Source: an uncultured Bacilli bacterium
GTDB taxonomy: Bacteria > Bacillota_I > Bacilli_A > RFN20 > CAG-449
Assembly (NCBI GenBank): GCA_944332525.1
Contig: CALVKD010000039.1
Span: 1 to 35,368, forward strand
Length of the DNA: 35,368 nucleotides
Direction of reading: 5' to 3'
Shown here: positions 7,628 to 34,059 of the stretch, in pieces
Numbering within the stretch: position 1 is the stretch's first letter
Layout: every line of letters starts with the position of its first letter
The notes under the pieces: model-generated
Databases searched by the model: none
The model's input: the letters and a program-made list of their open reading frames with translations, nothing else
What the model was told of the DNA's origin: nothing
Translations under genes and position numbers: made by a program

Positions 7628-8479
7628 ATGAAAAAGACAAAAATTTTAATCCCTCTCTTAGCCTTGGGATTACTTGCTGGCTGTGGAGGAACATCAACAT
7701 CTTCAACGCCAACCTCATCATCCGAACCAGAAACAGTCATCGTTACTGTCAGAACCTTTGAAGAACAACTTAAAGCTGCTGGTATTGAAGGATACACATA
7801 TGTTGATCCAAATGCTGACATCTACAAAGCAGAAACAAAACCAGCTGAAGGAGAAGAAGATGTCGTTGCTGGAGCATCAGGTGAAGGAACAGACTTCTAT
7901 CCAGCTTCCGGTGGTGGATCTTACTACACATTAGACTATATGGTAACTAGAGCGAACCTCAAATACTACCATTATTACTGGTCAGAAAGCGAAGAAGGTG
8001 CTAAAACCTTAGAAGAAGCTAGTAAATTAGAAAATGCTCAATACGTTTCTGATTTATTCCCTAATGATGGAAAAACTTATACTGTCGCTAGCTACAGCAA
8101 TGCTGTTGCTACTAAAACCATAGTTACTGCTGATAGTGAAGGCAATCTCTCTGCTTCAGTATATGGCATGGGTGCTTCTAAAATCGATGACAACTACTAT
8201 ATCACTGGTGCACTTACCAACAAGAAAACAGTTGCTAACTTAGTTAAGAACGGAAAAGGTTTAGTCCTTATGTACGAATACAACCCAACTTCTAACGATA
8301 AAACTGGCCCAGGTGGAAGAAACTTCGGCTGCCGTTTAGCTGTTGAGCTCGACTTTGATAAAACTACCTTCTCAACTTCTGAAGGTCCTGTTACCTTAAA
8401 GCTCGGTGATGATGTTCCAAGCAACCTCTCTGCTGCTATGGTCAAATTAAAAGTCACCACAATGTACACTTTAGGTTAA
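7628..8479 (+). CDS. Secreted lipoprotein, unknown function
   Basis: A 283-residue lipoprotein. The signal peptide MKKTKILIPLLALGLLAGC ends in the lipobox LAGC with lipid-attached Cys19, followed by a short Ser/Thr linker and then a single globular domain rich in Tyr, Gly and Ser. No enzyme motif was recognised. Codon use is biased towards C-ending codons (GTC, AAC, TAC), as in the aldolase gene, which suggests high expression. The ribosome-binding site AAAGGA is unusually distant (about 14 bases). It is a single-gene unit between divergent GNAT and convergent aldo/keto reductase genes and shares a bidirectional terminator with the latter. Confidence 0.8.
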   Translation: MKKTKILIPLLALGLLAGCGGTSTSSTPTSSSEPETVIVTVRTFEEQLKAAGIEGYTYVDPNADIYKAETKPAEGEEDVVAGASGEGTDFYPASGGGSYYTLDYMVTRANLKYYHYYWSESEEGAKTLEEASKLENAQYVSDLFPNDGKTYTVASYSNAVATKTIVTADSEGNLSASVYGMGASKIDDNYYITGALTNKKTVANLVKNGKGLVLMYEYNPTSNDKTGPGGRNFGCRLAVELDFDKTTFSTSEGPVTLKLGDDVPSNLSAAMVKLKVTTMYTLG

Positions 8480-12076: not shown

Positions 12077-13330
12077 TTAATTAATTCTTTTCATTATATA
12101 TGGAACTTGCGAACTATTAATCTCGTAAAGTTTATTGTTAGATTTTCCTTTACGCACTTTTAAAATGCCATAATCGACATATTTATTTAGTATCTTAAAT
12201 GCCGCTTGCTTGGAGATATCAGATTTAATCCATTTAATAAAATCACTATAAATAAAACTGCCGTTATACGATATGAGAATCTTTTTTAAATATGCGCGAT
12301 CAGTTTCAGTTAAAACGATGCCATCATTTTTTAAATTTTGATCAATTACTTCAATATTTTTGTAACAATTATAATAATTAACCGAGGCGGAGAATAAATA
12401 AATCAAAAAATACGTCATGTCATTATGGCTATCGCGGCTATTTCTTAATGCGATATAATAACTGCTTTTAGTTTGATCAATTGCCTCAGAAATAAATAAC
12501 ATCTGATCTATATTAGATAATATGCTTAGCCAAAAAGAAACCATCCTCGCCGTCCGGCCATTATAATCAAAATATGGATGAATGTAGACTAAATAATAAT
12601 GAGCGATATGCGGTAAGAAAAATTTTTTTAGCGAATTCTTGCTATGCAAAACATTATTAACATATTCAAACAAAGAATTCATACACATTTCTATCTTACC
12701 TGGTGGGCAGCCCATATAATTATCGACTTCAACATCATCATAACGATAGTAATCACCTTCGCGCAGCTGATAGTCTTCCTCTAATAGACCATCGCTTAAT
12801 AATTGATAAAGACGAAGTAAATTTTCTTTATTAAAATCAGGATTGGTTAAGACAAACTTAATACCTTCATACATATTTTTAATTATATAGTCATTATGTT
12901 CTTTCAATGGCACTTCGTTTTTAATAATTTCTTTTATCCTTTTTCTCGTAGTATTAACACCTTCGACAGATAAAGTACCTTCAATTTCTGAATATATTCT
13001 CGATTTTAAAATATCTTGGAAAAATCTTGCTGTTACTAAATTTCCGTTCTGATTTATATCTTCCTCTATAAGGTTTTGAATAGTTAAAAGATTACTATTT
13101 AATTCCTCGCAGATAACAAAAAATGGTTGCTGATTGTTATAGCTTAACAAATTAGGAATTTCAAAACGAGAATCACCTTTATTAAGTGCTTTCTCTTCTT
13201 TATATTTTAATAGCTGATTAAATTCATTCACATCGAGGCAAAAATTATATTTTGTGTTATACATTAAATCACGCGGAGTTAAATAAATATTATTAAACAT
13301 ATAATCAAATATTTTTTTATAATCAACCAT
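12077..13330 (-). CDS. Fic family protein with variant active-site motif
   Basis: A 417-residue Fic/DOC-fold protein; such enzymes usually transfer AMP from ATP to target-protein hydroxyls. An inhibitory-type motif SEIEG lies at residues 114-118 (class II, N-terminal to the core). The Fic motif is H251-PYFDYNGRTAR, in which the usual D/E-G-N is D-Y-N (Tyr256 for Gly). The catalytic His and the G-R pair are kept. The C-terminus (about 335-417) is a winged-helix domain. The start is the ATG at 13330 because GGAGG lies 8 bases upstream; an earlier ATG is part of that site. The promoter has direct repeats, so self-regulation is possible. It opens the accessory region. A toxin role is not established. 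Confidence 0.82.
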   Translation of the reverse strand: MVDYKKIFDYMFNNIYLTPRDLMYNTKYNFCLDVNEFNQLLKYKEEKALNKGDSRFEIPNLLSYNNQQPFFVICEELNSNLLTIQNLIEEDINQNGNLVTARFFQDILKSRIYSEIEGTLSVEGVNTTRKRIKEIIKNEVPLKEHNDYIIKNMYEGIKFVLTNPDFNKENLLRLYQLLSDGLLEEDYQLREGDYYRYDDVEVDNYMGCPPGKIEMCMNSLFEYVNNVLHSKNSLKKFFLPHIAHYYLVYIHPYFDYNGRTARMVSFWLSILSNIDQMLFISEAIDQTKSSYYIALRNSRDSHNDMTYFLIYLFSASVNYYNCYKNIEVIDQNLKNDGIVLTETDRAYLKKILISYNGSFIYSDFIKWIKSDISKQAAFKILNKYVDYGILKVRKGKSNNKLYEINSSQVPYIMKRIN

Positions 13331-13345
13331 TTTGTCAACCTCCAT

Positions 13346-17099: not shown

Positions 17100-19073
17100 A
17101 TGAAAAAAAATTATTTAAAAATTTTAACGACAATAGTATGTGTTACAGGTTGTGGTGTTGGTTTAAGTGCTTGTAATTCTACTTCATCAAGCGTTAGTAA
17201 TGTTAGCAGTATAAATAGTTCTACTCCTAGTAGTGAAAGTAATGTTAGCACGAGCGTAAGTAGCGAAATAGAAAATATTGAAGTGGAAAGTATTACACTT
17301 AATAAGAGTTCACTTACTCTTGAAGTAGGTGAAGAAGAAACTTTAATTGCAACGATTATGCCTAATGATGCAACTAATAAAACTGTGACTTGGAATGTTG
17401 AACCAGCAGGAGTAATTACTGTAGATAATGGTAAAATAACTGCAATAGCTTCTGGTAATGCAGTTGTGATAGCTTCAGCTGGAGAAAAAAGAGCGACATG
17501 TAATGTTACTGTTAATAAAAAAGAAACTACAACTATAAATGCAACATATTATATGATTACGGTTAGTCCAACTGGTTGGGCTGTTGATGCCAACCATGCT
17601 TTTATTTTTAACAAAGATGGCACTGGTGATTTTGATGGTGCAGGTACATATACCATTGATAATGGCGTAATTACTATTACTAATAATGTGAGCCAATCTG
17701 TTTGTTACGCAAAAATTGACGGAAATATTCTGTGGTTATTTGCATCTAAAGAAGATGTAAATGATATTTCTAAATCAAGTCAAGCATTATATAGTCTAAG
17801 TGAAATTACTCAAGAAGATCGTGAAAGGATTGAATCTATTTTTGGAGATGGAGTGTTTAATCCAAATATTAAAGATCCAGTTGATGAAAATGGCGTATTC
17901 CATCTTGAGAAAATTGAAGTTGGCGGAAATTTATTAGGTGGACAACCAGCGAATGGTTATGATCCTAAATATGTAGTTGATAAAACGGATGATACACTTA
18001 AGATTGATTATGAAGGAGTTTATGGAAATTCTTATCACGTTGTAGAACTTCAAGGAATTGGTTCATATCTTCAAGAAAAAAATGTATTTACTGCAAAAGT
18101 AACAAATAATGGTGATGAAACAGTAAATCTAAGAGTTAATATTACTGCAAATAAAGTTGGAAATAATGATTCTTGTAATATTTCTGCAACTATGGATGGT
18201 GAAGTAGTAAGAACTGATTCAGAATGGGGTGGCTCTTTCTTTTATATTGAAGCTGGGAAAACAGCTAATATTGAAATCATTTATGATAATTCACGGACTC
18301 TTTATGCAGTTCAATTTATGAGTGATTCTTCAACTAACTTAGCTCAAGCTTATAATGGTAGTATTGAAATTTGCGATATGAAAATTGCTTCAGAAAATAC
18401 TTCAAGCGATGATGTCTTTGTTGATGAATCTTATCGCATTCTTGATTTTTCTAAATCTGGATATCAAGGATTCTATGCCGCTAATGGATATTCTAATGGA
18501 GGTATGTTTAATTGCTATTGGAGTAATACCTGTGCTCAAATTAATGATAACACGCTTAATATGACCGTGAAAAAAGATACAAACAATAAAAATCCTACTG
18601 GTTATTTAGGCGCTGAATATCGAACCGATAATGTTTATTCTTATGGATATTATGAAGTATGTATGAAACCAGCTAAAGGATCAGGATTAGTCTCATCATT
18701 TTTCACTTATACTAATAATCCACGCTGGGATGAAATTGATATTGAGTTTTTAGGTAAAGACACAACTAAAGTTCAGTTTAATTATTATATTGATGGTGTC
18801 GGAGGCCATGAAAAACTTTATGATCTTGGCTTTGATGCTTCATCTGAATTCCATGTTTATGCTTTTGATTGGAAAAGTAATTCTATTACTTGGTATGTTG
18901 ATGGAAAAGCAGTATATACTGCGACAGAAAGTATTCCTGAATATTCTCAACAAATAATGATGAATATTTGGAATTGTACTGGTATTGATGAATGGACCGG
19001 ACCTCTTGATGAAAGTGCCCTTCCTGCCACAGCAAGTTATAAATGGGTTGCTTATGTTCCATATGCAAATTAA
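17100..19073 (+). CDS. GH16 beta-glucanase lipoprotein with Big_2 domain
   Basis: A 657-residue secreted enzyme. The signal peptide ends in the lipobox LSAC (Cys25), followed by a Ser-rich linker, an Ig-like Big_2 domain (about 62-138: ESITLNKSSLTLEVGEEETL, TVTWNVEP, NGKITAIASG), two beta-rich regions of unknown type (about 145-435), and a C-terminal GH16 domain (about 445-657). The catalytic motif DEIDIE puts the nucleophile at Glu545 and the acid/base at Glu549, and EFHVYAFDWKSNSITWYVDG is typical of licheninases. It should cut beta-1,3-1,4-glucan at the cell surface. Codons are strongly A/T-ending, unlike the C-rich lipoprotein at 7628, suggesting transfer. Neighbouring xylose genes are broken. 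AAGGAG precedes the start. Confidence 0.9.
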   Translation: MKKNYLKILTTIVCVTGCGVGLSACNSTSSSVSNVSSINSSTPSSESNVSTSVSSEIENIEVESITLNKSSLTLEVGEEETLIATIMPNDATNKTVTWNVEPAGVITVDNGKITAIASGNAVVIASAGEKRATCNVTVNKKETTTINATYYMITVSPTGWAVDANHAFIFNKDGTGDFDGAGTYTIDNGVITITNNVSQSVCYAKIDGNILWLFASKEDVNDISKSSQALYSLSEITQEDRERIESIFGDGVFNPNIKDPVDENGVFHLEKIEVGGNLLGGQPANGYDPKYVVDKTDDTLKIDYEGVYGNSYHVVELQGIGSYLQEKNVFTAKVTNNGDETVNLRVNITANKVGNNDSCNISATMDGEVVRTDSEWGGSFFYIEAGKTANIEIIYDNSRTLYAVQFMSDSSTNLAQAYNGSIEICDMKIASENTSSDDVFVDESYRILDFSKSGYQGFYAANGYSNGGMFNCYWSNTCAQINDNTLNMTVKKDTNNKNPTGYLGAEYRTDNVYSYGYYEVCMKPAKGSGLVSSFFTYTNNPRWDEIDIEFLGKDTTKVQFNYYIDGVGGHEKLYDLGFDASSEFHVYAFDWKSNSITWYVDGKAVYTATESIPEYSQQIMMNIWNCTGIDEWTGPLDESALPATASYKWVAYVPYAN

Positions 19074-19252: not shown

Positions 19253-19804
19253 TACCATCTTGATAAAGATTTTAAAATGAATATTGAAGCTAACCATGCT
19301 ACTTTGGCAGGCCATACTTTTGAACATGAACTTAGAGTCAGTGCGATTAATGGAAGGTTAGGTTCTATTGATGCTAACCAAGGAGATTATTTATTGGGTT
19401 GGGATACTGATGAATTCCCATTTGATGTATATTCAGCAACATTATGTATGTATGAAGTCCTTAAAGCTGGTGGTTTAACTGGTGGATTTAACTTTGATGC
19501 TAAAAGTAGAAGACCTTCATATACATATGAAGATATGTTTGAAAGTTATATATTAGGTATGGATACTTTTGCATTAGGATTAATTAAAGCTGCTGCAATT
19601 ATTGAAGATGGTAGAATTGATGAATTTAAAAAGAATCGTTATGCTTCATTCTATAATACTGAAATAGGTAAGAAAATTATTAATGATGAAACTAATTTAC
19701 AAGAATTAGCAAATTATGCAGAAAAATTAGGAAAAGCCGAATTACCTAGCAGTGGAAAACAAGAATTATTAGAATCAATTGTTAATAATATTTTATTTAA
19801 ATAG
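19253..19804 (+). pseudogene. xylA: Xylose isomerase, C-terminal fragment
   Basis: From 19256 the frame reads [20 protein letters not shown], then [23 protein letters not shown] and on to a stop at 19802-19804, matching the C-terminal 40% of XylA (about 440 residues when intact). It keeps part of the metal site (the His of NHATLAGH and the Asp residues of GSIDAN and WDTDEFP) but lacks the N-terminal barrel with the catalytic His and the first metal ligands. The ATG at 19277 lies inside the conserved core and has no ribosome-binding site, so this is a fragment rather than a short gene. The intact enzyme converts xylose to xylulose. It is followed after 8 bases by the xylB start. Confidence 0.9.
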
Positions 19805-19812
19805 GTATTAGT

Positions 19813-20024
19813 ATGAATAAATATATTGGAGTAGATTTAGGTACTAGTTCTTCAAAATTTTTATTAGTTGATATTGAAGGGAACGTTGATAAACAATGTT
19901 CCCGTTCTTATCCAGTCTTTTATCCGCAAGATGGATGGAGTGAACAAGATCCATCTTTATGGATTGAAGCTTTAATAAGTGGTGTAAAAGAATTAACTAG
20001 TAATGAAGATATCAATGAAATAAA
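19813..20024 (+). pseudogene. xylB: Xylulokinase, N-terminal fragment
   Basis: The first 71 codons encode the start of a FGGY-family xylulokinase: MNKYIGVDLGTSSSKFLLVD (phosphate-1 motif DLGTSSSK) and then PQDGWSEQDPSLWIEA. After INEIKG at about 20024, where family members continue with GISFSGQMHGLV, the frame enters unrelated sequence and soon stops. The break falls exactly where a 25-bp copy of the IS1634-type end begins (20025). The intact enzyme phosphorylates xylulose; this fragment lacks most of the kinase. Confidence 0.88.
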
Positions 20025-20049
20025 GGGCAAAGAAATGGGGGAAGTTTCA
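20025..20049 (-). repeat. Solo 25-bp inverted repeat, identical to the IS1634-type end at 35154
   Basis: The plus strand reads GGGCAAAGAAATGGGGG followed by AAGTTTCA. Its reverse complement is identical over 25 bases to 35154-35178, the left end of the IS1634-type element; the next base on each side differs. No transposase accompanies it. It joins the broken xylB gene to the broken frame on the other side. Confidence 0.85.
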
Positions 20050-20237
20050 GCTCTACGGTTATCCTTTAAGAGATTCAAAATCACAATCTCGTCTTTACTT
20101 ATTTCGCCATTTATTTCGCCACTCTTATTTCTATTTGTTCGAGAAATCGGTTGATTTCTTAAATAGGATTTTAAATCTCTTTCAAAGAAATCTGTCGGCA
20201 AATTATCATTAGCGAATGAGTCGAATATAAAATACTT
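20050..20237 (-). pseudogene. Fragment of an unidentified gene (possibly AlbA_2/Schlafen-type regulator)
   Basis: On the minus strand a frame runs from a stop at 20238 to the inverted repeat: NDNLPTDFFERDLKSYLRNQ, then SGEINGEISKDEIVILNLLK and DNRRAE. The GEINGEI stretch followed by a helix is reminiscent of the C-terminal winged-helix part of AlbA_2/Schlafen-type ATP-binding proteins. The frame has no start or ribosome-binding site and is cut at the repeat. The family call is weak. Confidence 0.35.
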
Positions 20238-20263: not shown

Positions 20264-21172
20264 TTATTTCATTTTATCAACTAAATGATATAAATCTTCC
20301 ATATTAGTTCCAATGTTATTCTTCAAGCCTTCTAAACTCGTACAATATTTTCTAGCATTTTGAATGGCTATTTCTGTCTTTTTAATATAATCATCCACAT
20401 TAAAGAATTTCTTATTGAAAGAACTATCATATTTCTTCAAAGCATCATAAACATATTGCGCGGATTTATCATCTTTTTCCCAGTTTGTTTTATCTATTTC
20501 TTCGGCGTTTGTATGATGCAATAGAAACCAAAATTCTATGCACGGATTGGATATTATCAAGGTAATATTATTCTCTTTTGTCTTAATCAACACATCATCG
20601 TATTGGTTGTCTTTAAAGCTACCTATGTCGCGATCGCCAATGATAACTATAGTATCAATATCCTTACAAAAAGTTGACTGCTCCTCGATAAGGGAAATTA
20701 ATAATTTTTCGTTCACAATATCTTTTAGATTATTGAATAAACTTGATTTTTGAATTTCATTTAATACATCACTAATTGAATCAAAATCTATTTCATCATG
20801 TAAATTTTTGTTATGCTTACTAAGTATAGATTCAAGTTTAGATTTTAATTTTTTCTTATTAATAATAATTTCTTTTTTAGAAGAAGCATCGTAAATAATA
20901 TCAACCAAACTTTCATACATTAATTCAGCTTCTTTTTTCCCTTGAATAACATCTAAAGCAGTACTTGTAATGCTTAATAAATTACTTGATTCTGGATTAG
21001 ATTTGTTTCTATAAAAGTAAAAAGTTTTTGAATTAATTTTTTTATTTTCAATTATTTTTTTAATGTAATTTACCTCAGTTTTCATTCCTTCTAAGGCAAA
21101 AAAATACTTCTTATTTACTTCTCTTATTCTTGATGGCCTATTAAAAGAACTTAAGGAAGCTATTCTCGGCAT
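20264..21172 (-). CDS. RloB/AbiLii-like TOPRIM-type defence protein
   Basis: A 302-residue RloB-family protein, the second component of AbiL-type abortive-infection systems; the TOPRIM-like fold is predicted to act on nucleic acid. The first acidic motif is FALEGMKTEVNYI (Glu28, residues 25-37), the DxD is VIIGDRD (Asp180, Asp182), and the C-terminal signature SNPCIEFWFLLHH is at 208-220. Most RloB proteins are about 200-220 residues; here roughly 100 extra residues (about 65-165, Lys/Ser/Ile-rich and helical) separate the first Glu from the DxD. Its start lies inside the 3' end of the ATPase gene (13-base overlap), so the two are translated together. Confidence 0.8.
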   Translation of the reverse strand: MPRIASLSSFNRPSRIREVNKKYFFALEGMKTEVNYIKKIIENKKINSKTFYFYRNKSNPESSNLLSITSTALDVIQGKKEAELMYESLVDIIYDASSKKEIIINKKKLKSKLESILSKHNKNLHDEIDFDSISDVLNEIQKSSLFNNLKDIVNEKLLISLIEEQSTFCKDIDTIVIIGDRDIGSFKDNQYDDVLIKTKENNITLIISNPCIEFWFLLHHTNAEEIDKTNWEKDDKSAQYVYDALKKYDSSFNKKFFNVDDYIKKTEIAIQNARKYCTSLEGLKNNIGTNMEDLYHLVDKMK

Positions 21173-22512
21173 GGCTCTATGGAAGGATAAATTGCATCAA
21201 AGATTGGCACTCCACCATATCGGCCATCAAGATAGGCTTTATCAATCTTTTTATCAAATCTAACATTAAATTCCTCTAAAGAATATAACGAGCTTTTCCC
21301 TTCATCATCTTTATCAGAAAACCAAATTTCATCACGTCTTAAAATATCAAAATCTAATAATCTAGATTCATGAGTAGTGACAATTAATTGATTATTTGTT
21401 GATTTAGCTCTTTCTAAAAATAATTGAACAAATTTACAAGTTAATTGAGGATGCAACTTTCTATCTAATTCATCAATTATGAATAACTGATTATCTCTTT
21501 CAGTTAATAAAGCTTCCGCGAGATCAATAATTCTTATAGTTCCTTCCGATTCATCAGCAAGAGAAAATGGATGATGCTTATCTTTATCATGATAAAAACA
21601 AATCTTTTTGAAGGAAACATTCTCTCCTTCAAAAATAATTATCCATACATTTTTATTACTTCTTAATAATGCCGCGGATTTATTATTAGGAACTTTATTA
21701 TCATTTGAATCAATTATTCTCATTTTAAATTCATCGATGAGTTTTAAAGGAATATTTTGATATGCGGTATCATTATCAACAGTAACGCTTCCAATGCTTT
21801 CAATTCCGGTTCCAAAAGCTTTTAGAAGTTGAGCTAATTTAGATATTTTATCTTCAACCATGAAATATTCACCTGATGTTAGTATTGATTCAGGCTCGGC
21901 AATATTTAGATTATTTTCAAACCAATCATAAACGTTTTTTAGTTCTGGATTCATTTCTAAAACCGCGCTTTGCTTACTATAATTAACGAAGGAAAGAAAT
22001 AATTTAGAATCATCATTTTTGATATCATCTAAATACATTTTTAGTTTATTTTCTTTATTTTTAGAATCTTTACAAGAAAAGACACCATTTTTCATATCTC
22101 TTGTAAAAATGATAGTTTCTTTCCTTCCATCCTTTTTGATTAGCCATTCGCTAGATAATCTATTATTATCTGAATTATATTCAAAGCCATAAGAATAAAC
22201 TAGACTGTCTAACAATAGATATACCTCAAAGTAAGTAGGTTCATTTATCATAGAATCATCTAATTTAAAATAAATTGGAACTCGAAATCGTGGTAATCCT
22301 GAAACAACAATTTGTTGCATATGTTCCAAAGCTTCTACAACATTTGTTTTTCCCCCGCCGTTTGCTCCATAAATCGCGGAAAACTTTAAAACGGAATAAT
22401 CTTTTTCTTTTTTTAATCTTTCTTCATACGATTTAGTGTTTCCAGCAATCATAGAAAACTCTTGAACGTTTTTATATGACTTATAGTTTTTAAAATTAAA
22501 TTTTAATAACAT
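21160..22512 (-). CDS. RloA/AbiLi-like AAA ATPase
   Basis: A 450-residue SMC/ABC-like ATPase (AAA_15/AAA_21 type), the first component of an AbiL/RloAB-type phage-defence pair. The N-terminus LLKFNFKNYKSYKN is typical; Walker A is YGANGGGKTN (residues 48-57), a signature-like SLADESEG lies near 315, Walker B is LFIIDELD at about 343-350, and the D-loop/H-switch region reads KLHP and VTTHES. The start has AAGGAGG 8 bases upstream. The gene is preceded by a repeat-rich 140-base promoter region and followed by the overlapping RloB gene. No restriction-modification genes, which often accompany RloAB, are present. Antiphage activity is inferred from the family. Confidence 0.82.
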   Translation of the reverse strand: MLLKFNFKNYKSYKNVQEFSMIAGNTKSYEERLKKEKDYSVLKFSAIYGANGGGKTNVVEALEHMQQIVVSGLPRFRVPIYFKLDDSMINEPTYFEVYLLLDSLVYSYGFEYNSDNNRLSSEWLIKKDGRKETIIFTRDMKNGVFSCKDSKNKENKLKMYLDDIKNDDSKLFLSFVNYSKQSAVLEMNPELKNVYDWFENNLNIAEPESILTSGEYFMVEDKISKLAQLLKAFGTGIESIGSVTVDNDTAYQNIPLKLIDEFKMRIIDSNDNKVPNNKSAALLRSNKNVWIIIFEGENVSFKKICFYHDKDKHHPFSLADESEGTIRIIDLAEALLTERDNQLFIIDELDRKLHPQLTCKFVQLFLERAKSTNNQLIVTTHESRLLDFDILRRDEIWFSDKDDEGKSSLYSLEEFNVRFDKKIDKAYLDGRYGGVPIFDAIYPSIEPCRE

Positions 22513-25000: not shown

Positions 25001-25939
25001 TTAGTTTAAAGCAATGTAAGTAAACTGTTCGTTACCCATGCTCATACCTAAAGTGACAAAGCTAATTTCTCCGTTTTTAAAGCGAATATTTGTCGGAGTT
25101 AAATAATTATCGTAAGTATCGTAACCAGTTAGATGTAAGGATGAATCTTCTTGATTATAAACAGTTTGAATCTGCGTTAAAAATAACTTGCGATACTCAC
25201 CATTTAAATCATCAAGATCAATGATTTTGATTTCAGTGTCTGGATATTCTAAAGTGAATTCGTAATAAGCTCCTTCGCTTCTTTGGCAAGCTGAACATGT
25301 ATCATTAGAAATCACTAAGATAAAATCTTCATCTCGCGCGATTTTTTGCCTTAATTCAGTTTGATTAAGCATGTTATTAAAATAAAAATTTTCTTCGCTT
25401 ACATAATAAAAATTATGGATTCTAACATTTTCTGCAGCAACTACGACTTTACCGATTTGATTATCCGAAAAAAGAAAATTATAAATCATGGAATCATTAG
25501 CTTTATCGTAATAAAAATTTAAACTTGTTACGTCCTTATCAAAATAACTAAGCTGATAATTTGTAAGCTTATCTTCTTTAATTTGATATCCGTCTTGAGA
25601 TGAAATAAAATCGCTAGTGTTAACAATATTAACTAATTTATATAAATCTAAGCCATAATTTATTTCATCAGAAACTTTAATTACTTCATCATCATAAAGC
25701 TGATACTTTTTCATAAACGGCAGATAGTAATACGTAATCTCAGTATTATTATCAATATACGAATTAGTATCGATAGTTAATGATAAATTATATAATGAAT
25801 CGTTAAAACAGGCCTTTCCTGAGGTCAAAACATAATTAAAGAAGGAGATATAATCCTCCTTCAAAACAGCTGTCTGCTGGCAAGCAGAAGCTGATAAAAA
25901 CAATAATCCGATTACTAATAACTTATTCAGCTTCTTCAT
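25001..25939 (-). CDS. Lipoprotein with C-terminal thioredoxin-like domain
   Basis: A 312-residue lipoprotein. The signal peptide ends in SAC with Cys20. Residues of about 30-195 form a beta-rich region of unknown type. The C-terminal part (about 200-312) resembles a thioredoxin fold: DFILVISNDTCSACQRSEG has a CxxC motif (CSAC) at about 214-217, followed by EIKIIDLDDL and a TPTNIRFKNGE segment with the cis-Pro position. It would act in thiol-disulfide exchange outside the membrane, or simply bind thiols. Its ATG lies inside the 3' end of the Mrp gene (17-base overlap), so the two are translationally linked. Confidence 0.75.
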   Translation of the reverse strand: MKKLNKLLVIGLLFLSASACQQTAVLKEDYISFFNYVLTSGKACFNDSLYNLSLTIDTNSYIDNNTEITYYYLPFMKKYQLYDDEVIKVSDEINYGLDLYKLVNIVNTSDFISSQDGYQIKEDKLTNYQLSYFDKDVTSLNFYYDKANDSMIYNFLFSDNQIGKVVVAAENVRIHNFYYVSEENFYFNNMLNQTELRQKIARDEDFILVISNDTCSACQRSEGAYYEFTLEYPDTEIKIIDLDDLNGEYRKLFLTQIQTVYNQEDSSLHLTGYDTYDNYLTPTNIRFKNGEISFVTLGMSMGNEQFTYIALN

Positions 25940-26789
25940 CTTTTAACTCTTGATAAATCTTCTCAGCAACTTCATCAAGATACTTTCCTTCATACTTTTC
26001 AATTTCCCCGTGATTAATTAATTTAGTTAAAGCAAGGTCTAATGGTAAGGAAGCAATTAAATTAATGTCTTCATCTTTAAGTAATTCGGAAATTGAAGAT
26101 TCTCCGTATAAAGAAATCTTCTCATGGCATTTAGGGCATTCAATATAAGCCATATTTTCGATGATACCTCTAATTTTAATATGCATCATCTTCGCCATAT
26201 TGACCGCTTTCTTAACAATTAAGGAAACTAAGTCTTGTGGAGTTGTTACCATAATAATTTCATCAACTGGAATGCTTTGGAAAATAGTTAAAGCGACATC
26301 GCCGGTTCCTGGAGGCATATCGATAACTAAAACATCGAGTTCACCCCATAAAACATCGCTATAGAACTGTTTAACAATCGTGGAAATAAGCGAGCCTCTC
26401 CAAATAATCGGGTCATCATCATGCTCAAGAAGCATATTAGAAGAAATCATCTTAATTTTTAACTCTGGGGAAATAAACGGATAGATTAAATTGTTTTGTC
26501 CATACGCTCTTTCTTTTACACCAAAAGTCTTCGGAATGCTCGGTCCGGTTATATCCGCATCAAGTAAGCCGACCTTTAACCCCTTTTTAGCTAAAGAAAC
26601 CGCTAAAAGAGAAGAGACAAAAGATTTGCCGACTCCGCCTTTGCCGGAAACGACACCGATAATTTTTTTAATCTTCGAAAATTCATTTAAATTTACAGTA
26701 AATGAAGCCTGGGAGCAGTCATTAGCTTCCTGGCAATGTGAGCAATCCCCGTCGCATGCCGGTGATTGCTTATATTTTTCATTACTCAT
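25923..26789 (-). CDS. mrp: Mrp/NBP35-type P-loop ATPase, Fe-S carrier
   Basis: A 288-residue Mrp/ApbC-family scaffold that carries Fe-S clusters to apoproteins. Walker A is the deviant GKGGVGKS (residues 49-56), followed by LLDADITGPS, IDMPPGTGD and the CPKC motif at 218-221 that binds the bridging cluster. An N-terminal cysteine-rich tail (C-x3-C-x2-C-x5-C in residues 12-25) resembles the extra cluster site of eukaryotic Nbp35 and some bacterial and archaeal members. It overlaps the preceding YigZ gene by 8 bases and the following thioredoxin-like lipoprotein gene by 17. Confidence 0.9.
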   Translation of the reverse strand: MSNEKYKQSPACDGDCSHCQEANDCSQASFTVNLNEFSKIKKIIGVVSGKGGVGKSFVSSLLAVSLAKKGLKVGLLDADITGPSIPKTFGVKERAYGQNNLIYPFISPELKIKMISSNMLLEHDDDPIIWRGSLISTIVKQFYSDVLWGELDVLVIDMPPGTGDVALTIFQSIPVDEIIMVTTPQDLVSLIVKKAVNMAKMMHIKIRGIIENMAYIECPKCHEKISLYGESSISELLKDEDINLIASLPLDLALTKLINHGEIEKYEGKYLDEVAEKIYQELKDEEAE

Positions 26790-27393
26790 CGCTTTCTCCT
26801 TTCACCAAGGCAAATTCTTCCGCAATTAACTCTATGGCAATTTGTCCTTGCATATAATTTATCAAATCATCTAATTTTCTAGAAGATAACACTTCATAGA
26901 TAACATTATCTTGATATAAAACGTCACGCGTTTCAATCTTTTCCGTTAAGAGATACTTTTTTAAAACATCAATATTTTTATATTCAGTCACCAAATGATA
27001 ACAGTAACGCTTTTCTTGATGGTAAATATCAGCTTTGCTAATAACATTAACCGCGCCGCTAACATAAGCCCTCAACAATCCGCCCGCACCGAGTTTAATC
27101 CCGCCAAAATAACGGATAACCACGCAGAGAACTTTATTAAGATGATGTTTTAGCAAAACCTCTAAAATCGGTTTACCTGCCGTTCCTGAAGGCTCACCAT
27201 CATCATTAGACTTCCTCACTTCATCAAAAACATACGCATAGCAATAATGCGTCGCTTTTGGATAAGTTTTCATTAAACTTTTCAAGTGATCTTTATATTC
27301 ATCTTTAGTTTTCAAAGGTAATAAAACCGAAATGAACTGACTCTTTTTTATTTCTTCTTCAAAGGTGAAGGTTTCTAAAACATAGTTAGGCAT
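26782..27393 (-). CDS. yigZ: YigZ/IMPACT family protein (UPF0029)
   Basis: A 203-residue protein of the YigZ/Impact family. The UPF0029 signature YFGGIKLGAGGLLRAYVSG lies at about residues 90-108, preceded by the conserved THYCYAYVF and DDGEPSGTAG segments. Family members are small cytoplasmic proteins, possibly ribosome- or translation-related; the molecular role is not settled. It overlaps the giant CvpA-like gene upstream by 8 bases and the mrp gene downstream by 8 bases. Confidence 0.92.
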   Translation of the reverse strand: MPNYVLETFTFEEEIKKSQFISVLLPLKTKDEYKDHLKSLMKTYPKATHYCYAYVFDEVRKSNDDGEPSGTAGKPILEVLLKHHLNKVLCVVIRYFGGIKLGAGGLLRAYVSGAVNVISKADIYHQEKRYCYHLVTEYKNIDVLKKYLLTEKIETRDVLYQDNVIYEVLSSRKLDDLINYMQGQIAIELIAEEFALVKGESDE

Positions 27394-30300
27394 TTGTATA
27401 ATTTCTCAAAATATCTGCGATAGTCTTTAACTGCATAGTCCAGTTATCAGCTTTATCAGCGAAAACTTCACTTGCTAAATCAATGCTGAAATCAAGTTTA
27501 TTATTTGCTAATTCTGGAATTAAAATCGCTAAAGTATCTAATTGTTGGTTAATCTCAGCAATAGTTGGATTAATTAAACTGTCAAAGCCAATACTAGCAA
27601 TCATCGAATTCAAGTAATATTCTTCTTTGATATAGATGCTCTTAAATGTCTCATCATCTTTGTTGCCCATCATGCTGATATTATTGGCCATACCTACATA
27701 GAATTCATCGTTGATATTAGCAAATTTATTAGCCATATCGCCTATATATGTAGCCATATTACCTGAAAAATTGATAAGTCCTTTTAAGCCATCATTTTCA
27801 TAAGTATTGAATGTTATATAGTCATTATTAATTGCAGCATCATTTGTCCGAGCAAATAAGTTATAGACATAGTTTATATCCTGAGTAGATAAATCTTGAG
27901 AAATAATTCTGTCTAACAATCTCGCTAAGACTTCGCTTAATAAATAAGCACGATTATATAAGTCTTTATCAGTAACGTTTTCAAGATTAGAAACATCATT
28001 TAATGTATATGCTGAATTAAATAAATCATCAACTAAAGATGAGGAAACTTCGGTAATACTGCTAAGAATTTCACCATTATCAAAAAGGCTACCATAAAGT
28101 TCATTGATAAAGTACTCTAATCTTTCACCTTCAAAAGCCCATTGATTTTCTAATGTTTTATCATCAATATGATTTTTCACAATATAGCTAATCATGTCTT
28201 CAGCTAACTGATTGCTTCTACCTTTATCATCACTAACCCAAATTTCATCAGCGATATCGGCTTTTACTAAGGCTCCATAGATTAATGAACTTCTAATAGA
28301 AACAACAGTGTTATCGACTGTGACATCGTCAAATGTATTCAGTTTGCCAATTAAATTAAATAATGTGCTTAAATTGTTAACTTCAACAGAAGTGATATTT
28401 CCGCTATCGTCAGTCTTTTTAACGAAGAAGCTATCAACTCCACCTTTAATTGCTTCAAATAAGGAATCTTTGCCATCGCATAATGTAGAGATATCTTCAT
28501 CCCAAAGATTAATTTTTTCTTCTTGAGAAATATTTTTATCTTCAATCGCGTATCCGCTAATGACAACATTTTCATCAACAATTAAGCCGTTAATATTAGT
28601 TAAGACTTGATCAAAAATCTTTGGTAAAGCATCGTGATAAAGCGATGAGTGATTAACGCTAACTAAGAGATCATTAACTTCTTGAGCATTTAGAGCTTTT
28701 AATGTTTCAGCATTGCTTAAATCATTAAAGTCTTTAATTGAACTCGACATTTTAATGGTCGCATTAACCGCGGAAGTTATGTTGTCGATTTCTTTATTCC
28801 AGTCAGAAATACGAGAAATATTTTTAACCATTTTCGCTTCAGCAGAAGAATAAGAAGTATCTCTATCTTGGTTATAAGCTAATTCATCAAATCCGCTGGT
28901 ATCCATCAAGAAATTAATCATCTGTTCAAAGAAAGTTAAATCTTCACCATAGATATTCTTAACTTTTCTTGAATTGTTTGTAAAGGCTGATTCTTCCATC
29001 GCTTTCAGCATCGGAGCGATAACGTTGGTCATATCGCCTTTTAACGATTCTAAGCCGTTGCTTAAGCCATCATTATTTAATAAGTCCATCAACGGATCAG
29101 CAATATCCATAAAGATATCGATTTGATCTTGACGCGCGGCAATTTCACCGCTTCTTGAAACATCATAGCCCTTTGAAGAAAGAACGTTATTGCTATCTTT
29201 ATAGTTATAATCAACCGAGAAAGCTTCAAAATAGAGATCATTAACGGTTACTCTTTCATCGACAGTTGTATCTGGATTATCCGTTCCGAAAGCAAAGTTT
29301 GTGGTTGAGAACACTTTATTAAGCGATGAGCTAAATAAGGTTCTAAAGGAATCAATTTCATTAAAATCTGTGAGAATTGGTGAAAGAACATCCATTCTAT
29401 TATCGCTTTCTAAAACCTTTTCAAAAGTGATATTGCCATTATTATCAAAGAAAATCTTTTCGCCGTTTTCTTCTTTCAGGAATTCTTTTAATAAGTTCAT
29501 TATTTTATCGATTTCTCCGCCTTCCTCAATTGGAGCATTACCGATAGCAAAAGCGCTGATATGGTCTTCTTTAACATTTTCAGAATCAACATTTTCACCT
29601 AATGACTCTTCAATCTTTGATGTGACATTATCATAGAAAAATTCAGCAAATGGTTTGCCGGTAATTTCATATTTTCCGTTAACAAGTTCACTATTAAATG
29701 AAGATAAATTATAGACCGACTTTAATACAGTACTTAGATTATCGATATCAGCAACATCTAGAGATGCGATATTGATATTAGCTAAATCCATGCCGTCGCT
29801 ACCGAAGGCTTTAACCGCGTCGATAACTTTAACAAATTCACTGGCTTCTTTATCCCAATCAGAAACGTTATTAAAATTAATTTTTAATCCGCTTTGTTTT
29901 AATGGTTCTTCCAAGTAATGATTAAGAATATTTCCCATTGATGAAGAAATAATTGTAGATGAAGCTAAATCAGAGAAAATATTTTGAATTTCTTGTGAAT
30001 CAATTTTGTTAATATTGATGGTTCCACCATCTGCATTAATCAAATTTTTAATTGTCGAAGAATCTTGTAAAGTGGAGAAAGCTGCAACGATATTATCAAT
30101 TTCTTTATTCCAATCAGAAATTGAAGTAATTGTATTTTCACTAACAGCAAAACCCATGTTGGTTAAGTTTTGATCTTGGAAAATATTATATAAAACTGTT
30201 TCAAAATTACTCATTTCACCAGCAGCTGGCTGAGGATTAATTAAAGGTGATTGTTCAACAATCTTTAAAATATGTCCGAGTTTTTCTACATCGAATTGAG

Positions 30301-32398
30301 TCTTATCAAGGAAAGCATTAGGATCATTTGAACTTAAGGCTTCACTCAAAGCATTGATATCTGGAACTAAGTCAAGAAGGTTATAGAGTTCTTGTCCGAA
30401 GGAAGTAACATCAAAATTAAGATCTTTAAAGGTTAAGCCATAGATTAACTCTTGATTACCTAACTGATTTTCAATTAAATCAGGGATGCAAATTGAAAGA
30501 ATTTGGGAATCATCAATATTCAAAGAAACTTCTTGCAAAATTGAGATAATTTTTTCATCTTTTAAAATATCAACTTTATTATCGATAATATCTTGAAGAG
30601 GAAAATCTGGGTTATTGTAAATTAAATGCACGGTATCAAGCAATGAAGAAATTTCATGGCTCCATTCCTCTTTTGTTGTCACTTCGGCCGCAACTTCGTC
30701 GATAGCTTGGCTTAATCCTAAGTTTTGTAACTCTTCAAATGAAGTCGCATATTTTAAAACGTTTCCGATTTGGCTAAGTAATAATTCTGAATCAAGAATT
30801 CCCTTATACGCTAAAGAACTATCATCTTTATAAACACCATCAAATAAACTCTTAGTCGATAAATGATAACGGTTTTGGTCAATACTCGTCGTAGAAGTCA
30901 ATAACTCCGTTCCATCACTCTTTTCTCCGTTAATCGCTTCTTCTGTTAATGAATAATTGATTACTTGCATTAATGCGCTATTCTGTTCATTAGAATGCAT
31001 GAAATCGCCAACGGTAAGATTTCTTTGAATTGGTGAATAAAGAGCTAAATCAGAAAGATTAACCACAGTATCATAAAGAGAAAGCAATTCATTGCCTAAA
31101 TCAATATTTTGATAAGCTGCTGCATCTTCCGGCAAAATTTCATTATTAGCTTGATCATTAACATATGTGGCTAATGATGTTAAAAGATATGGCATTACTT
31201 TATTTAAAACTGATGAATCTTCTAAATTTTCAAAAGTTAATTTGAAAGAAGTATAATTCTCACGGCTAAAGGTATAGCTTTCAATTCCTTGAGGATCGAG
31301 AGCTTGCGAAATTAAGCCGGTTTCATAGAAATTATCATAAATATCGGAAATAGTTAAAAGTTCATCGCTCCAATCGATATCATTCCAGTTAACCGCTGAT
31401 AAATCTACATTATTTTTAATTTGATCAATATTGACGACAATTGATAAAGCTACTGGCAAGATTGAAGTAACAAATGGAGAATTTGCTAACAAATCAAGTG
31501 AACCGGTAACAAAAGCTTCAGATAATGCAGCCGTTTGATTGAATGAGAAGTTACTTAAATCAATAACTCCTTCTTGAATACCTAAGCAAGCGATATTTAA
31601 AAAGACCTCCATTTCATTAAATAAAGATGTAGTTTCATCACCTAACTTAAATGAAGTCAAATAAGAAGCTAATTGAATATCTAATGAAGAATCACCAACT
31701 TTTAAACTAGTTAAAGTTTGGCCGAGAAGAGAATTTTTATAAGCGTCGACATATTCCTGTAAAGCCTTAGTCTTACTATTATTTAACTCAAAATCAAATT
31801 GATTAACAGTATTAACAACATTAGATGCTAATGCGGTAAACGGCATTAATAACAACGCTGAAGAAACGAGAGCTTTAACGCCTCCAACAAAAAAGCCTCC
31901 GACTCTGATTTTATGTTTTTGTGTCAAATTTTTACCTAAAAGATGTTTAATTAAAAGGTTATAAATTAAGAAAGAAAGCAATGGTGAAATGATAAAGCAA
32001 ACAATTATGAAATGAAGGATAAATACAACTAAAGCAATAATTGAAGTCGCTAATTTATCGCACATTACAAAAGCTTCAGATGACGGAGTTAAGCCGGAAC
32101 CATTACTTGAGAAATAAATAATAATATCTCTCAAAGTTTCACCAATTGTAGTAACCGGAAAAACTTGTCCGTTAATTCCGATTGCTAAATTAAGCGAAGT
32201 TAAATTAATTCCATAGTATAATTCAGCAAATTTTGTATTGAAAACAATAATTATGACATAGAGAATCGATGAAATGATAAAAGCGGTCAAAGACTTCCAA
32301 ACGCCTTTAAACAACCCAAAAATCATTTTTAAGACTATCAGTCCAATTAAAACATAAACGACTATATTTAAGATCAAAGTAATTTGAGCTGGATCCAT
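27386..32398 (-). CDS. Giant CvpA-like membrane protein with W-repeat extracellular region (1670 aa)
   Basis: The N-terminal ~190 residues hold about four membrane spans (7-27, 33-53, 112-145, 165-190) and resemble CvpA-family proteins. Everything after about residue 200 is a soluble, Asn/Asp/Ser/Leu-rich helical region of nearly 1,470 residues without Cys-rich or enzyme motifs. A short motif, W-x-x-E-(I/L) at the head of a helix (DWNKEIDNI type), recurs with Trp at about residues 343, 579, 763, 848, 1200, 1299 and 1653; spacing is irregular. The start ATG is followed directly by the first span (MDPAQITLILNIVVYVL). It heads a four-gene overlapping operon with yigZ, mrp and the thioredoxin-like lipoprotein. 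Function unknown; orientation of the large part (outside or cytoplasm) is not determined. Confidence 0.75.
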   Translation of the reverse strand: MDPAQITLILNIVVYVLIGLIVLKMIFGLFKGVWKSLTAFIISSILYVIIIVFNTKFAELYYGINLTSLNLAIGINGQVFPVTTIGETLRDIIIYFSSNGSGLTPSSEAFVMCDKLATSIIALVVFILHFIIVCFIISPLLSFLIYNLLIKHLLGKNLTQKHKIRVGGFFVGGVKALVSSALLLMPFTALASNVVNTVNQFDFELNNSKTKALQEYVDAYKNSLLGQTLTSLKVGDSSLDIQLASYLTSFKLGDETTSLFNEMEVFLNIACLGIQEGVIDLSNFSFNQTAALSEAFVTGSLDLLANSPFVTSILPVALSIVVNIDQIKNNVDLSAVNWNDIDWSDELLTISDIYDNFYETGLISQALDPQGIESYTFSRENYTSFKLTFENLEDSSVLNKVMPYLLTSLATYVNDQANNEILPEDAAAYQNIDLGNELLSLYDTVVNLSDLALYSPIQRNLTVGDFMHSNEQNSALMQVINYSLTEEAINGEKSDGTELLTSTTSIDQNRYHLSTKSLFDGVYKDDSSLAYKGILDSELLLSQIGNVLKYATSFEELQNLGLSQAIDEVAAEVTTKEEWSHEISSLLDTVHLIYNNPDFPLQDIIDNKVDILKDEKIISILQEVSLNIDDSQILSICIPDLIENQLGNQELIYGLTFKDLNFDVTSFGQELYNLLDLVPDINALSEALSSNDPNAFLDKTQFDVEKLGHILKIVEQSPLINPQPAAGEMSNFETVLYNIFQDQNLTNMGFAVSENTITSISDWNKEIDNIVAAFSTLQDSSTIKNLINADGGTININKIDSQEIQNIFSDLASSTIISSSMGNILNHYLEEPLKQSGLKINFNNVSDWDKEASEFVKVIDAVKAFGSDGMDLANINIASLDVADIDNLSTVLKSVYNLSSFNSELVNGKYEITGKPFAEFFYDNVTSKIEESLGENVDSENVKEDHISAFAIGNAPIEEGGEIDKIMNLLKEFLKEENGEKIFFDNNGNITFEKVLESDNRMDVLSPILTDFNEIDSFRTLFSSSLNKVFSTTNFAFGTDNPDTTVDERVTVNDLYFEAFSVDYNYKDSNNVLSSKGYDVSRSGEIAARQDQIDIFMDIADPLMDLLNNDGLSNGLESLKGDMTNVIAPMLKAMEESAFTNNSRKVKNIYGEDLTFFEQMINFLMDTSGFDELAYNQDRDTSYSSAEAKMVKNISRISDWNKEIDNITSAVNATIKMSSSIKDFNDLSNAETLKALNAQEVNDLLVSVNHSSLYHDALPKIFDQVLTNINGLIVDENVVISGYAIEDKNISQEEKINLWDEDISTLCDGKDSLFEAIKGGVDSFFVKKTDDSGNITSVEVNNLSTLFNLIGKLNTFDDVTVDNTVVSIRSSLIYGALVKADIADEIWVSDDKGRSNQLAEDMISYIVKNHIDDKTLENQWAFEGERLEYFINELYGSLFDNGEILSSITEVSSSLVDDLFNSAYTLNDVSNLENVTDKDLYNRAYLLSEVLARLLDRIISQDLSTQDINYVYNLFARTNDAAINNDYITFNTYENDGLKGLINFSGNMATYIGDMANKFANINDEFYVGMANNISMMGNKDDETFKSIYIKEEYYLNSMIASIGFDSLINPTIAEINQQLDTLAILIPELANNKLDFSIDLASEVFADKADNWTMQLKTIADILRNYTNA

Positions 32399-32515
32399 AA
32401 AACAACCTCCAAAGTTATTAGTTACAAAACAATAATATTATATTTTTTAAAAATATAAATTATTTTTTATCTTTAATTTGTTTTTAATCTGTTATACTCT
32501 TACTAACGAGGCATT

Positions 32516-33235
32516 ATGAAAAACGAAGATATTTTTGTATTTGTGAAAAAAATGGGCTTATTTCTCGTCGGATTTCTCGGCTTAAGCATCATTTCGGCAA
32601 TTGTTCAGTTAGCATTTGGAGAACTTATCGTTTCGGCAATGGGCAATCAAGCTTCTGCTTTTCTTAATTTTATCGTGTATTTTATTGGAGCGATAATCTT
32701 ATGCTTAATCGTTTGGAAAAACGAATTAATCGATATTTTTAAGGGATTTAAAGTACCTCAAAATATTAAAGACGGAATTGCTATTGGAATTATTATCTTA
32801 GCGGTAACGATGTCATATAATCTGCTTTTATCATTAATTATGCCATCGTTTGGCTCAAATGATAATGAAGCTAGCGTCGATAATATGATTTTAATAAATC
32901 CAGTTTTAAGTTTTATCACCGTCGTTTTATTTGCACCTCTAGTCGAAGAAATAACTTATCGCTACGGATTATTTGCCGGAATCAGAAAATATTCACGCGT
33001 TTTAGCCTATATTGTTACTTCTTTAGTTTTTGCATTAATCCACTTTGATTTTAACTTTTCTGATCAAGCCGTTTTAATAAACGAATTGCTTAATTTACCT
33101 ACATATATTTTTGCCGCGGTTATGCTTTGCTATGCCTATGATAAAAATACTTCCTTAGCTACATCAATGACCGCGCATTTAATCAATAATTTAACCGCAG
33201 TTATCACAACCATCATCGCATCATTTCTGCAATAA
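32516..33235 (+). CDS. CPBP family intramembrane metalloprotease
   Basis: A 239-residue integral membrane protein with about seven spans, of the CPBP (CAAX protease, Rce1-like) family. Motif 1 is EEITYRYG (Glu144, Glu145, Arg149), motif 2 is FALIHFDF (His176) and motif 3 is HLINN (His221, Asn225), all expected in active members. Substrates are unknown. The start has only a weak CGAGG site. It is followed after 2 bases by the TraX-like gene. Confidence 0.88.
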   Translation: MKNEDIFVFVKKMGLFLVGFLGLSIISAIVQLAFGELIVSAMGNQASAFLNFIVYFIGAIILCLIVWKNELIDIFKGFKVPQNIKDGIAIGIIILAVTMSYNLLLSLIMPSFGSNDNEASVDNMILINPVLSFITVVLFAPLVEEITYRYGLFAGIRKYSRVLAYIVTSLVFALIHFDFNFSDQAVLINELLNLPTYIFAAVMLCYAYDKNTSLATSMTAHLINNLTAVITTIIASFLQ

Positions 33236-33237
33236 CT

Positions 33238-34059
33238 ATGTATAAAGAAAAATATAAATTTCAAATACTGGCGTCATTTCATTTAAAAATCATCGCCATG
33301 ATTACAATGCTAATTGACCATATCGGTGCTTATTTAGTACCGATTAAAAGTCCTTTTTATTATCCTATGCGAGTGATTGGCAGAATCGCTATGCCGCTTT
33401 ACGCTTTCTTTATTGTTGAAGGAATGCGTTATTCTCATAACAAATTAAAATATTTATTGCAGCTTTTCATCATGGGAATAATTGTCGATATCGGGGAGAT
33501 AATTTTTCTTAAAAAATATAGCGGTTCGATTTTCGATACCTTCGTCATCAGCGGGCTTATAATCTATTTCTTAATGAAAAAAGAAATCTATTTAAAAGTC
33601 TTCGCGCTTATTCCCTTTGCTATTGGTATCTTATCCGGGTTTTCTTTTTTTCCAATTCGTTTAGAATATGGACCTTATGGAATGTTAACCGTTTTAATAA
33701 TTTATCTTGGCTACGCATTAATCGATGTTTACGGAAAATTAACCTGCACTCAATACGATATTGATTATCAAGCCTATAAAAAATCAGGCACATTTACTTT
33801 TTATTACGTTCTCTGCGCAGCTTTATTATTAATCGGTTTTAATGCTTTATGCGTTATTTTTCAAAATTATCTCTATCTCTATTTTGATGCCTCGTCAGTC
33901 GATTATGGCATTCAAAGCTTTATTGTCTTCGCATTGCTTTTATTAATGCTTTATAACGGAAAAAGAGGATATAATCATCCTCTCTTCAAATGGGGCTGCT
34001 ACGCTTTTTACCCCGTACATTTAATCATATTATATATTATTAAATTGATTATTGGTTAA
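33238..34059 (+). CDS. TraX-like membrane protein (acetyltransferase-type)
   Basis: A 273-residue protein with about eight membrane spans. The N-terminal K-x-I-A-M-ITMLIDHIGAYL and GRIAMPLYAFFIVEGM segments and the C-terminal KWGCYAFYPVHLIILYIIK are hallmarks of the TraX family (named for the F-pilin acetylase; most chromosomal members are uncharacterised acyltransferase-like membrane proteins). It starts 2 bases after the CPBP gene's stop, so the two are co-transcribed. It ends 4 bases inside the convergent DegV gene's stop. Confidence 0.85.
   Translation: MYKEKYKFQILASFHLKIIAMITMLIDHIGAYLVPIKSPFYYPMRVIGRIAMPLYAFFIVEGMRYSHNKLKYLLQLFIMGIIVDIGEIIFLKKYSGSIFDTFVISGLIIYFLMKKEIYLKVFALIPFAIGILSGFSFFPIRLEYGPYGMLTVLIIYLGYALIDVYGKLTCTQYDIDYQAYKKSGTFTFYYVLCAALLLIGFNALCVIFQNYLYLYFDASSVDYGIQSFIVFALLLLMLYNGKRGYNHPLFKWGCYAFYPVHLIILYIIKLIIG

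Follow-up and report, generated by a model that had tools for sequence, protein, structure and literature searches.

CvpA (Colicin_V, PF02674) is an old puzzle among bacterial membrane proteins, being small and widespread and having phenotypes but no agreed function. Its members are stand-alone proteins of ~160–260 residues with a four-transmembrane-helix fold and a G-x-x-[KR]-G loop between the first and second transmembrane helices (TM1 and TM2). Here we analysed a stretch of 35,368 nucleotides from an uncultured Bacilli bacterium (positions 1 to 35,368 of contig CALVKD010000039.1, assembly GCA_944332525.1; hereafter the window), in which one gene encodes a giant protein of 1670 residues whose N-terminus shares this fold and loop. 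Unlike CvpA, the giant is several times longer and has other neighbours, and nearly all members of its family score below the Pfam cut-off for CvpA/Colicin_V. We found a well-supported architecture, in which a putative CvpA-like anchor is followed by an undescribed array of repeated modules and a variable tail, and from which we infer a role in surface scaffolding or adhesion.

Other described systems resemble parts of this layout. The transmembrane part of MarP (Rv3671c), the mycobacterial acid-resistance protease, is Colicin_V/CvpA-like. MarP has four N-terminal transmembrane helices followed by a periplasmic C-terminal domain, a precedent for the layout of the giant (PMC4992679). The C-terminal domain of MarP is a chymotrypsin-like protease, whereas that of the giant is predicted to be a helical solenoid; no protease domain was matched in the giant by Pfam or NCBIfam, and its models are all-alpha. 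HEAT/ARM solenoids (CRM1, importins, karyopherins) likewise consist of tandem short helices, which in the giant are predicted to stack, but the giant has a three-helix unit with a W-x-x-E start, is membrane-anchored, bacterial and predicted to be extracellular, and shows no significant structure or sequence match to them. The sortase-dependent LPXTG repeat adhesins of Gram-positive bacteria are long anchored repeat rods with a variable tip and a variable copy number of repeats. They have a C-terminal LPXTG and Ig-like repeats in place of the N-terminal transmembrane helices and helical repeats of the giant, and the likeness would be a functional analogy only.

An intact giant gene with a CvpA-like N-terminus

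The giant gene is real, intact and complete. It is an open reading frame (ORF) of 1670 codons on the minus strand, with an ATG start and zero internal stops, and the following features describe its start and N-terminal part.

27386..32398, minus strand: giant protein gene, 1670 residues; putative CvpA-like anchor, 11 three-helix modules and variable tail (from ORF, homologues and purifying selection)
32406..32410, minus strand: Shine-Dalgarno GGAGG of the giant gene, just upstream of the start and read directly from the sequence
31799..32398, minus strand: putative four-helix CvpA/Colicin_V-like anchor, residues 1-200 (from hhalign with controls, loop charges, PF02674 matches in homologues and AlphaFold2 helices); positive loops 1-2 and 3-4 predicted to be cytoplasmic

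The nearest relative, in a sister genome of the same genus, is a counterpart of 1670 residues with 96% identity on an independent contig, and this genome (an uncultured Bacilli bacterium) also gave the only match when named genomes were searched with the giant as a single protein. The ratio of nonsynonymous to synonymous substitution rates (dN/dS) of the gene is 0.091, which indicates purifying selection; along the protein it climbs from anchor to tip (0.012, 0.068, 0.091 and 0.287), with the lowest value in the anchor and the highest in the tail. Since such a close relative lies on its own contig and dN/dS is 0.09, we reject both an assembly error and a chance ORF as explanations of the gene.

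A preliminary description of the window had taken the N-terminus of the protein to be CvpA-like. A direct Pfam scan gave no CvpA match, so a stronger, profile-to-profile test was needed for this part. Using hhalign, the N-terminal profile of the giant family aligned to that of 15 genuine CvpA proteins from this order with a probability of 97.7 and an E-value of 1.4e-12 over 181 columns; the controls gave 6.5e-4 (CvpA profile reversed) and 3e-3 (CAAX, an unrelated multi-transmembrane family). PF02674 itself matches the start of 4 of 48 homologues at E<0.01 (best 1.8e-6). By these comparisons, which bear out the early assignment, we judge the N-terminal 200 residues to be a diverged four-helix CvpA/Colicin_V domain. 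An ordinary CvpA of ~256 residues is encoded on another contig of the same genome.

Family-wide loop charges were +2.0 (loop 1-2), -3.8 (loop 2-3), +6.3 (loop 3-4) and -3.6 after the fourth transmembrane helix, and this pattern holds in 94–97% of family members. Under the positive-inside rule these charges place both the N-terminus and the long region C-terminal to the anchor outside, and the 1,470 residues after the anchor are predicted to be extracytoplasmic, in agreement with the surface location suggested earlier. This ectodomain is acidic (DE 16.5%, KR 6.2%), N/S-rich and has 3 Cys. Beyond the anchor there is a single weak hydrophobic stretch at residues 303-322, inside the first of the modules described below (M0).

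A repeated three-helix module marked by tryptophan

Comparison of module profiles over 14 segments of the protein gave 31 of 91 pairs at a probability above 50 (best E-value 1e-10) versus 0 of 91 for reversed profiles. By this measure we recognise at least 11 homologous modules (M0-M10) in residues 250-1377, each laid out as helix A ([IV]-D-W/F/L-x-x-E-[LI]-x-x-[LI]), helix B, and helix C, which usually follows a conserved Ser. The modules and the tail, all on the minus strand, are as follows.

31409..31651, minus strand: module M0, residues 250-330, no W; hhalign to M1/M3 with probability 88/92
31139..31396, minus strand: module M1, residues 335-420, W343 starts helix A (AlphaFold2 and module profile comparison)
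30719..31120, minus strand: module M2, residues 427-560, L434 replaces W, low-confidence insertion at 455-528 (AlphaFold2 and module profiles)
30449..30691, minus strand: module M3, residues 570-650, W579 (AlphaFold2 and module profiles)
30164..30421, minus strand: module M4, residues 660-745, no W; profile match to M6/M8 with probability 80/85
29879..30133, minus strand: module M5, residues 756-840, W763 (AlphaFold2, module profiles and two-module profile search)
29594..29878, minus strand: module M6, residues 841-935, W848, the most conserved W (module profiles)
29264..29536, minus strand: module M7, residues 955-1045, no W; profile match to M5/M9 with probability 96/95
28904..29161, minus strand: module M8, residues 1080-1165, no W; profile match to M9 with probability 92
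28574..28822, minus strand: module M9, residues 1193-1275, W1200 (AlphaFold2 and module profiles)
28259..28531, minus strand: module M10, residues 1290-1380, W1299 (AlphaFold2 and module profiles)
27389..28258, minus strand: tail, residues 1381-1670, predicted helical, unrelated to the modules and fastest evolving (dN/dS 0.287)

AlphaFold2 models of residues 1-900 and 860-1670 are almost wholly helical, with predicted local distance difference test (pLDDT) values of 80.5 and 79.5, and the repeated module that had been proposed is present in the models and in the profiles alike. Seven copies of a tryptophan motif had been counted along the protein. A real repeated module stands behind that motif, whereas the strict form W-x-x-E-(I/L) fits four positions only (W343, W579, W763 and W1200); W848 reads WDKEA, W1299 reads WDEDI, and the seventh copy, W1652 (NWTMQLKTI), sits in the tail and is not part of a module. 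The pattern W-x-x-[ED]-[ILMVF] occurs five times in the giant versus 0.57 expected in shuffles (0/500 shuffles reach 5), and a motif hidden Markov model (HMM) trained on half of the proteins found 2.2 matches per held-out protein at >=6 bits and 0 in reversed or shuffled sequences, the family consensus being [IV]-D-W-x-x-E-[LI]-x-x-[LI]-x-x-hydrophobic. Within the AlphaFold2 models, a helix begins exactly at each of W343, W763, W848 and W1200, and W579 falls in the opening turn of its helix; the tryptophan labels this opening turn of helix A within a three-helix module of ~80 residues. It is present in only some of the repeats, with M0, M4, M7 and M8 of this protein lacking it, and position 434 of M2 is Leu here and Trp in many relatives.

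No family in Pfam, NCBIfam or the PDB sequences covers the modules, the HEAT/ARM sequence profiles of Pfam have no match in 48 + 30 family members, and the giant alone has zero matches to PDB sequences; the observation that its layout corresponds to no described family holds for these three resources. A literature search on giant CvpA proteins found nothing relevant, and neither the combination of a CvpA anchor with this repeat array nor its scale and distribution is described in the literature searched.

Distribution and length scaling of the giant family

It had been suggested that the giant may belong to a system specific to its lineage, a view that the distribution of the family contradicts. 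A profile of the first 300 residues recovered family members in 163 of 279 genomes from the order and, at E<=1e-8, in 144 of 395 genomes sampled from the class, with homologue frames mostly of ~850 to 6,056 residues (the longest being G387:C7). In a phylum-wide sample, whose number of out-of-class genomes is not stated, every match lay inside the class. Module HMMs built from proteins of this order gave ~187 matches (summed by hand) on giants outside the training set versus 4 on reversed sequences, and almost zero on other large proteins of the same loci. Proteins within the order have 7 to ~21 modules each, and protein length correlates with module count (r = 0.92, in which only the extra modules are independent, as the eleven aligned modules were in training).

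The anchor-plus-modules architecture is common to some 50 aligned homologues and occurs class-wide. A two-module profile without the transmembrane part, searched against 98 relatives, matched almost solely frames of this architecture, with only one short frame (G025, 433 residues). The concern that anchor and modules might be separate genes joined by an assembly error was also addressed: all fetched full-length homologues hold both parts in one frame, none has split genes, and the assembly-fusion reading was rejected.

Several genomes of the order also have short homologues of the anchor region of ~280-305 residues (G187:C6, G189:C19, G272:C15 and G171:C36), two of which (G187:C6 and G189:C19) are interrupted by stop codons; these are possibly truncated relatives or ordinary CvpA-like paralogues. 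Tandem pairs of giants occur in some families (L144, L145, L157-L159), and in one family lipoprotein-like genes, identified by eye, flank the pairs.

Gene neighbourhood and cell-wall context

The genes around the giant are listed below, with neighbour counts among the 34 giant loci of the order.

26782..27393, minus strand: YigZ/UPF0029 gene (PF01205, 5.6e-35), overlapping the giant gene by 8 bp; 30/34 loci
25923..26789, minus strand: Mrp/ApbC Fe-S carrier ATPase gene (PF10609, 1.2e-84); 26/34 loci
25001..25939, minus strand: lipoprotein with a CxxC segment and weak thioredoxin similarity (E 0.15), found only in the genus
32516..33235, plus strand: CPBP/CAAX glutamic intramembrane protease, divergent from the giant (PF02517, 4.5e-17), EExxxR and HxxxN present; 31/34 loci
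33238..34059, plus strand: TraX-family membrane protein (PF05857, 1.1e-23); 30/34 loci

The order-wide layout is a TraX/CPBP-protease pair divergent from giant, YigZ and Mrp. Of the four-gene set proposed in the preliminary description, the overlapping YigZ, Mrp and lipoprotein genes are present here and the first two recur across the order, while the thioredoxin-like lipoprotein lies beside the giant in only 1 of the 34 loci, that of the sister genome; the divergent CPBP/TraX pair, a robust neighbour, had been missed. The CPBP protein has below-cutoff NCBIfam matches to MrtJ/MrtS. A further genome of the genus (G002) is without the giant, the CPBP gene and Mrp together; a missing contig or the loss of the entire locus would account for this, rather than a loss confined to the giant. 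The CPBP, TraX, YigZ and Mrp neighbours are absent in other families of the class, and we therefore regard them as a trait of the lineage, not as obligatory companions of the giant. Giants elsewhere in the class adjoin MurA, lie near MraY, adjoin UppS or sit between lipoproteins (MurA, UppS and lipoproteins were named by eye).

The genome of the window (G000) and its genus lack MraY, which three other genera in the family have; this suggests a recent loss of peptidoglycan synthesis. Related uncultured orders have lost peptidoglycan and sortases (PMC10868615). Across the class sample, a hand tally gave 39 genomes with both MraY and a giant, 105 with a giant only, 121 with MraY only and 130 with neither. 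These counts are confounded by phylogeny, and some MraY-positive families have giants, so the link to wall loss is weak.

Possible roles of the giant protein

We consider the giant to be probably a membrane-anchored extracellular alpha-solenoid, acting as a scaffold or adhesive stalk with a variable tip. The protein would be fixed in the cytoplasmic membrane by a four-helix bundle of the CvpA type, N-out and C-out, the three-helix modules, at least 11 in number, would probably stack as a long rod outside the cell, and the faster-evolving tail of 290 residues would be the likely distal tip. Lineages may tune the length of the rod through module number, and its variable end and side faces could be offered to surface proteins, matrix or host. 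The setting would be Bacilli with a reduced or absent wall, to which sortase anchoring is presumably unavailable; the genus without MraY and the published losses of peptidoglycan and sortases lead us to favour a surface scaffold or stalk for wall-reduced cells.

Several results weigh against this role. The giant compared directly with PF02674 has no match at E<1. The predicted template-modelling (pTM) scores of the two AlphaFold2 models are just 0.60 and 0.72, and solenoid stacking remains a prediction. The top PDB structures found by Foldseek are mostly HEAT/ARM solenoids (CRM1, karyopherins, importins) at non-significant levels (E>=0.03, TM ~0.12); the PDB fold search returned nothing at E<1e-3 with Foldseek, and every match with VIA-align stayed below Z 5, which does not imply a new fold. 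Nothing evident connects YigZ and Mrp with surface display, and MraY is encoded in 39 of the 144 giant-bearing genomes, so the giant does not simply take the place of the wall.

Here a CvpA fold bears a giant protein in much of a class, many members of which are uncultured and have a reduced or no wall; many of the Bacilli with this protein type are gut or wall-poor bacteria. As a broader and more tentative proposal, the giants could constitute an undescribed class-wide family of surface proteins that is a main scaffold of wall-reduced Bacilli and stands in for sortase-anchored adhesins. If the giant is a surface scaffold, this would explain how long proteins are displayed in lineages without sortases, CvpA could serve to anchor or gate extracytoplasmic machinery, and the modules would be a new repeat family whose length is adjusted as modules are gained and lost.

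Constraint is far stronger in the anchor than anywhere else in the protein, beyond what a mere tether needs, which leaves room for a transport or gating role. If the giant were a CvpA-like transporter or channel, the four-helix part would export or admit a substrate and the solenoid would be a receptor or gate that captures the substrate or binds a controlling partner. CvpA is predicted to be similar to small-solute exporters and is required for deoxycholate (bile-salt) resistance in enteric pathogens (PMC6705877). However, the transport function of CvpA is unproven, four helices form a minimal pore unless oligomerised, and the separate ordinary CvpA in the same genome also speaks against this role, which we regard as unlikely.

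We assign a slightly lower likelihood to a factor in envelope assembly or maturation, in which the giant would hold or guide secreted proteins and the CPBP protease and TraX-like protein would process or modify the giant or its clients. The frequent presence of the divergent pair beside the giant in this order, the below-cutoff similarity of the CPBP protein to the sorting-signal proteases MrtJ/MrtS, and the giants near MurA or MraY or between lipoproteins in other families are consistent with such a factor, but CPBP and TraX are absent in other orders where the giant persists, and there are no known clients or modifications.

With its long domain inside the cell, the giant would be a scaffold of the cytoplasm or membrane skeleton, which appears quite improbable: HEAT/ARM-like solenoids are mostly cytoplasmic, as are the YigZ and Mrp neighbours, and some ectodomains have up to 23 Cys, yet the conserved loop charges and the acidic, N/S-rich and mostly Cys-poor domain speak against this location. 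An artefact, either a CvpA gene fused to an unrelated long ORF or chance copies of the motif, deserves practically no credence, as no point was found in its favour and the architecture shared by ~50 aligned homologues and class-wide, the motif controls and purifying selection all stand against it.

Other loci in the window

Ser-rich lipoproteins without a Pfam match are encoded at 7628-8479 and 10037-11950 (plus strand), a Fic-family protein (PADLOC SoFic, 1.8e-25) at 12077-13345 (minus strand), and a lipoprotein that combines a GH16 beta-glucanase and a bacterial Ig-like (Big_2) domain at 17100-19073 (plus strand). Remnants of a xylose operon lie at 19277-20154 (plus strand). Xylose isomerase is represented by its last 172 residues (TIGR02630 positions 263-434) and xylulokinase by its initial 70, which run into an unrelated end; each has the look of a decayed pseudogene. 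At 20264-22512 (minus strand), an AAA ATPase (PADLOC AbiLi 1.8e-81, AAA_21) and a RloB-like protein (AbiLii 2.2e-16, PF13707) form a defence pair of the AbiL/RloAB type.

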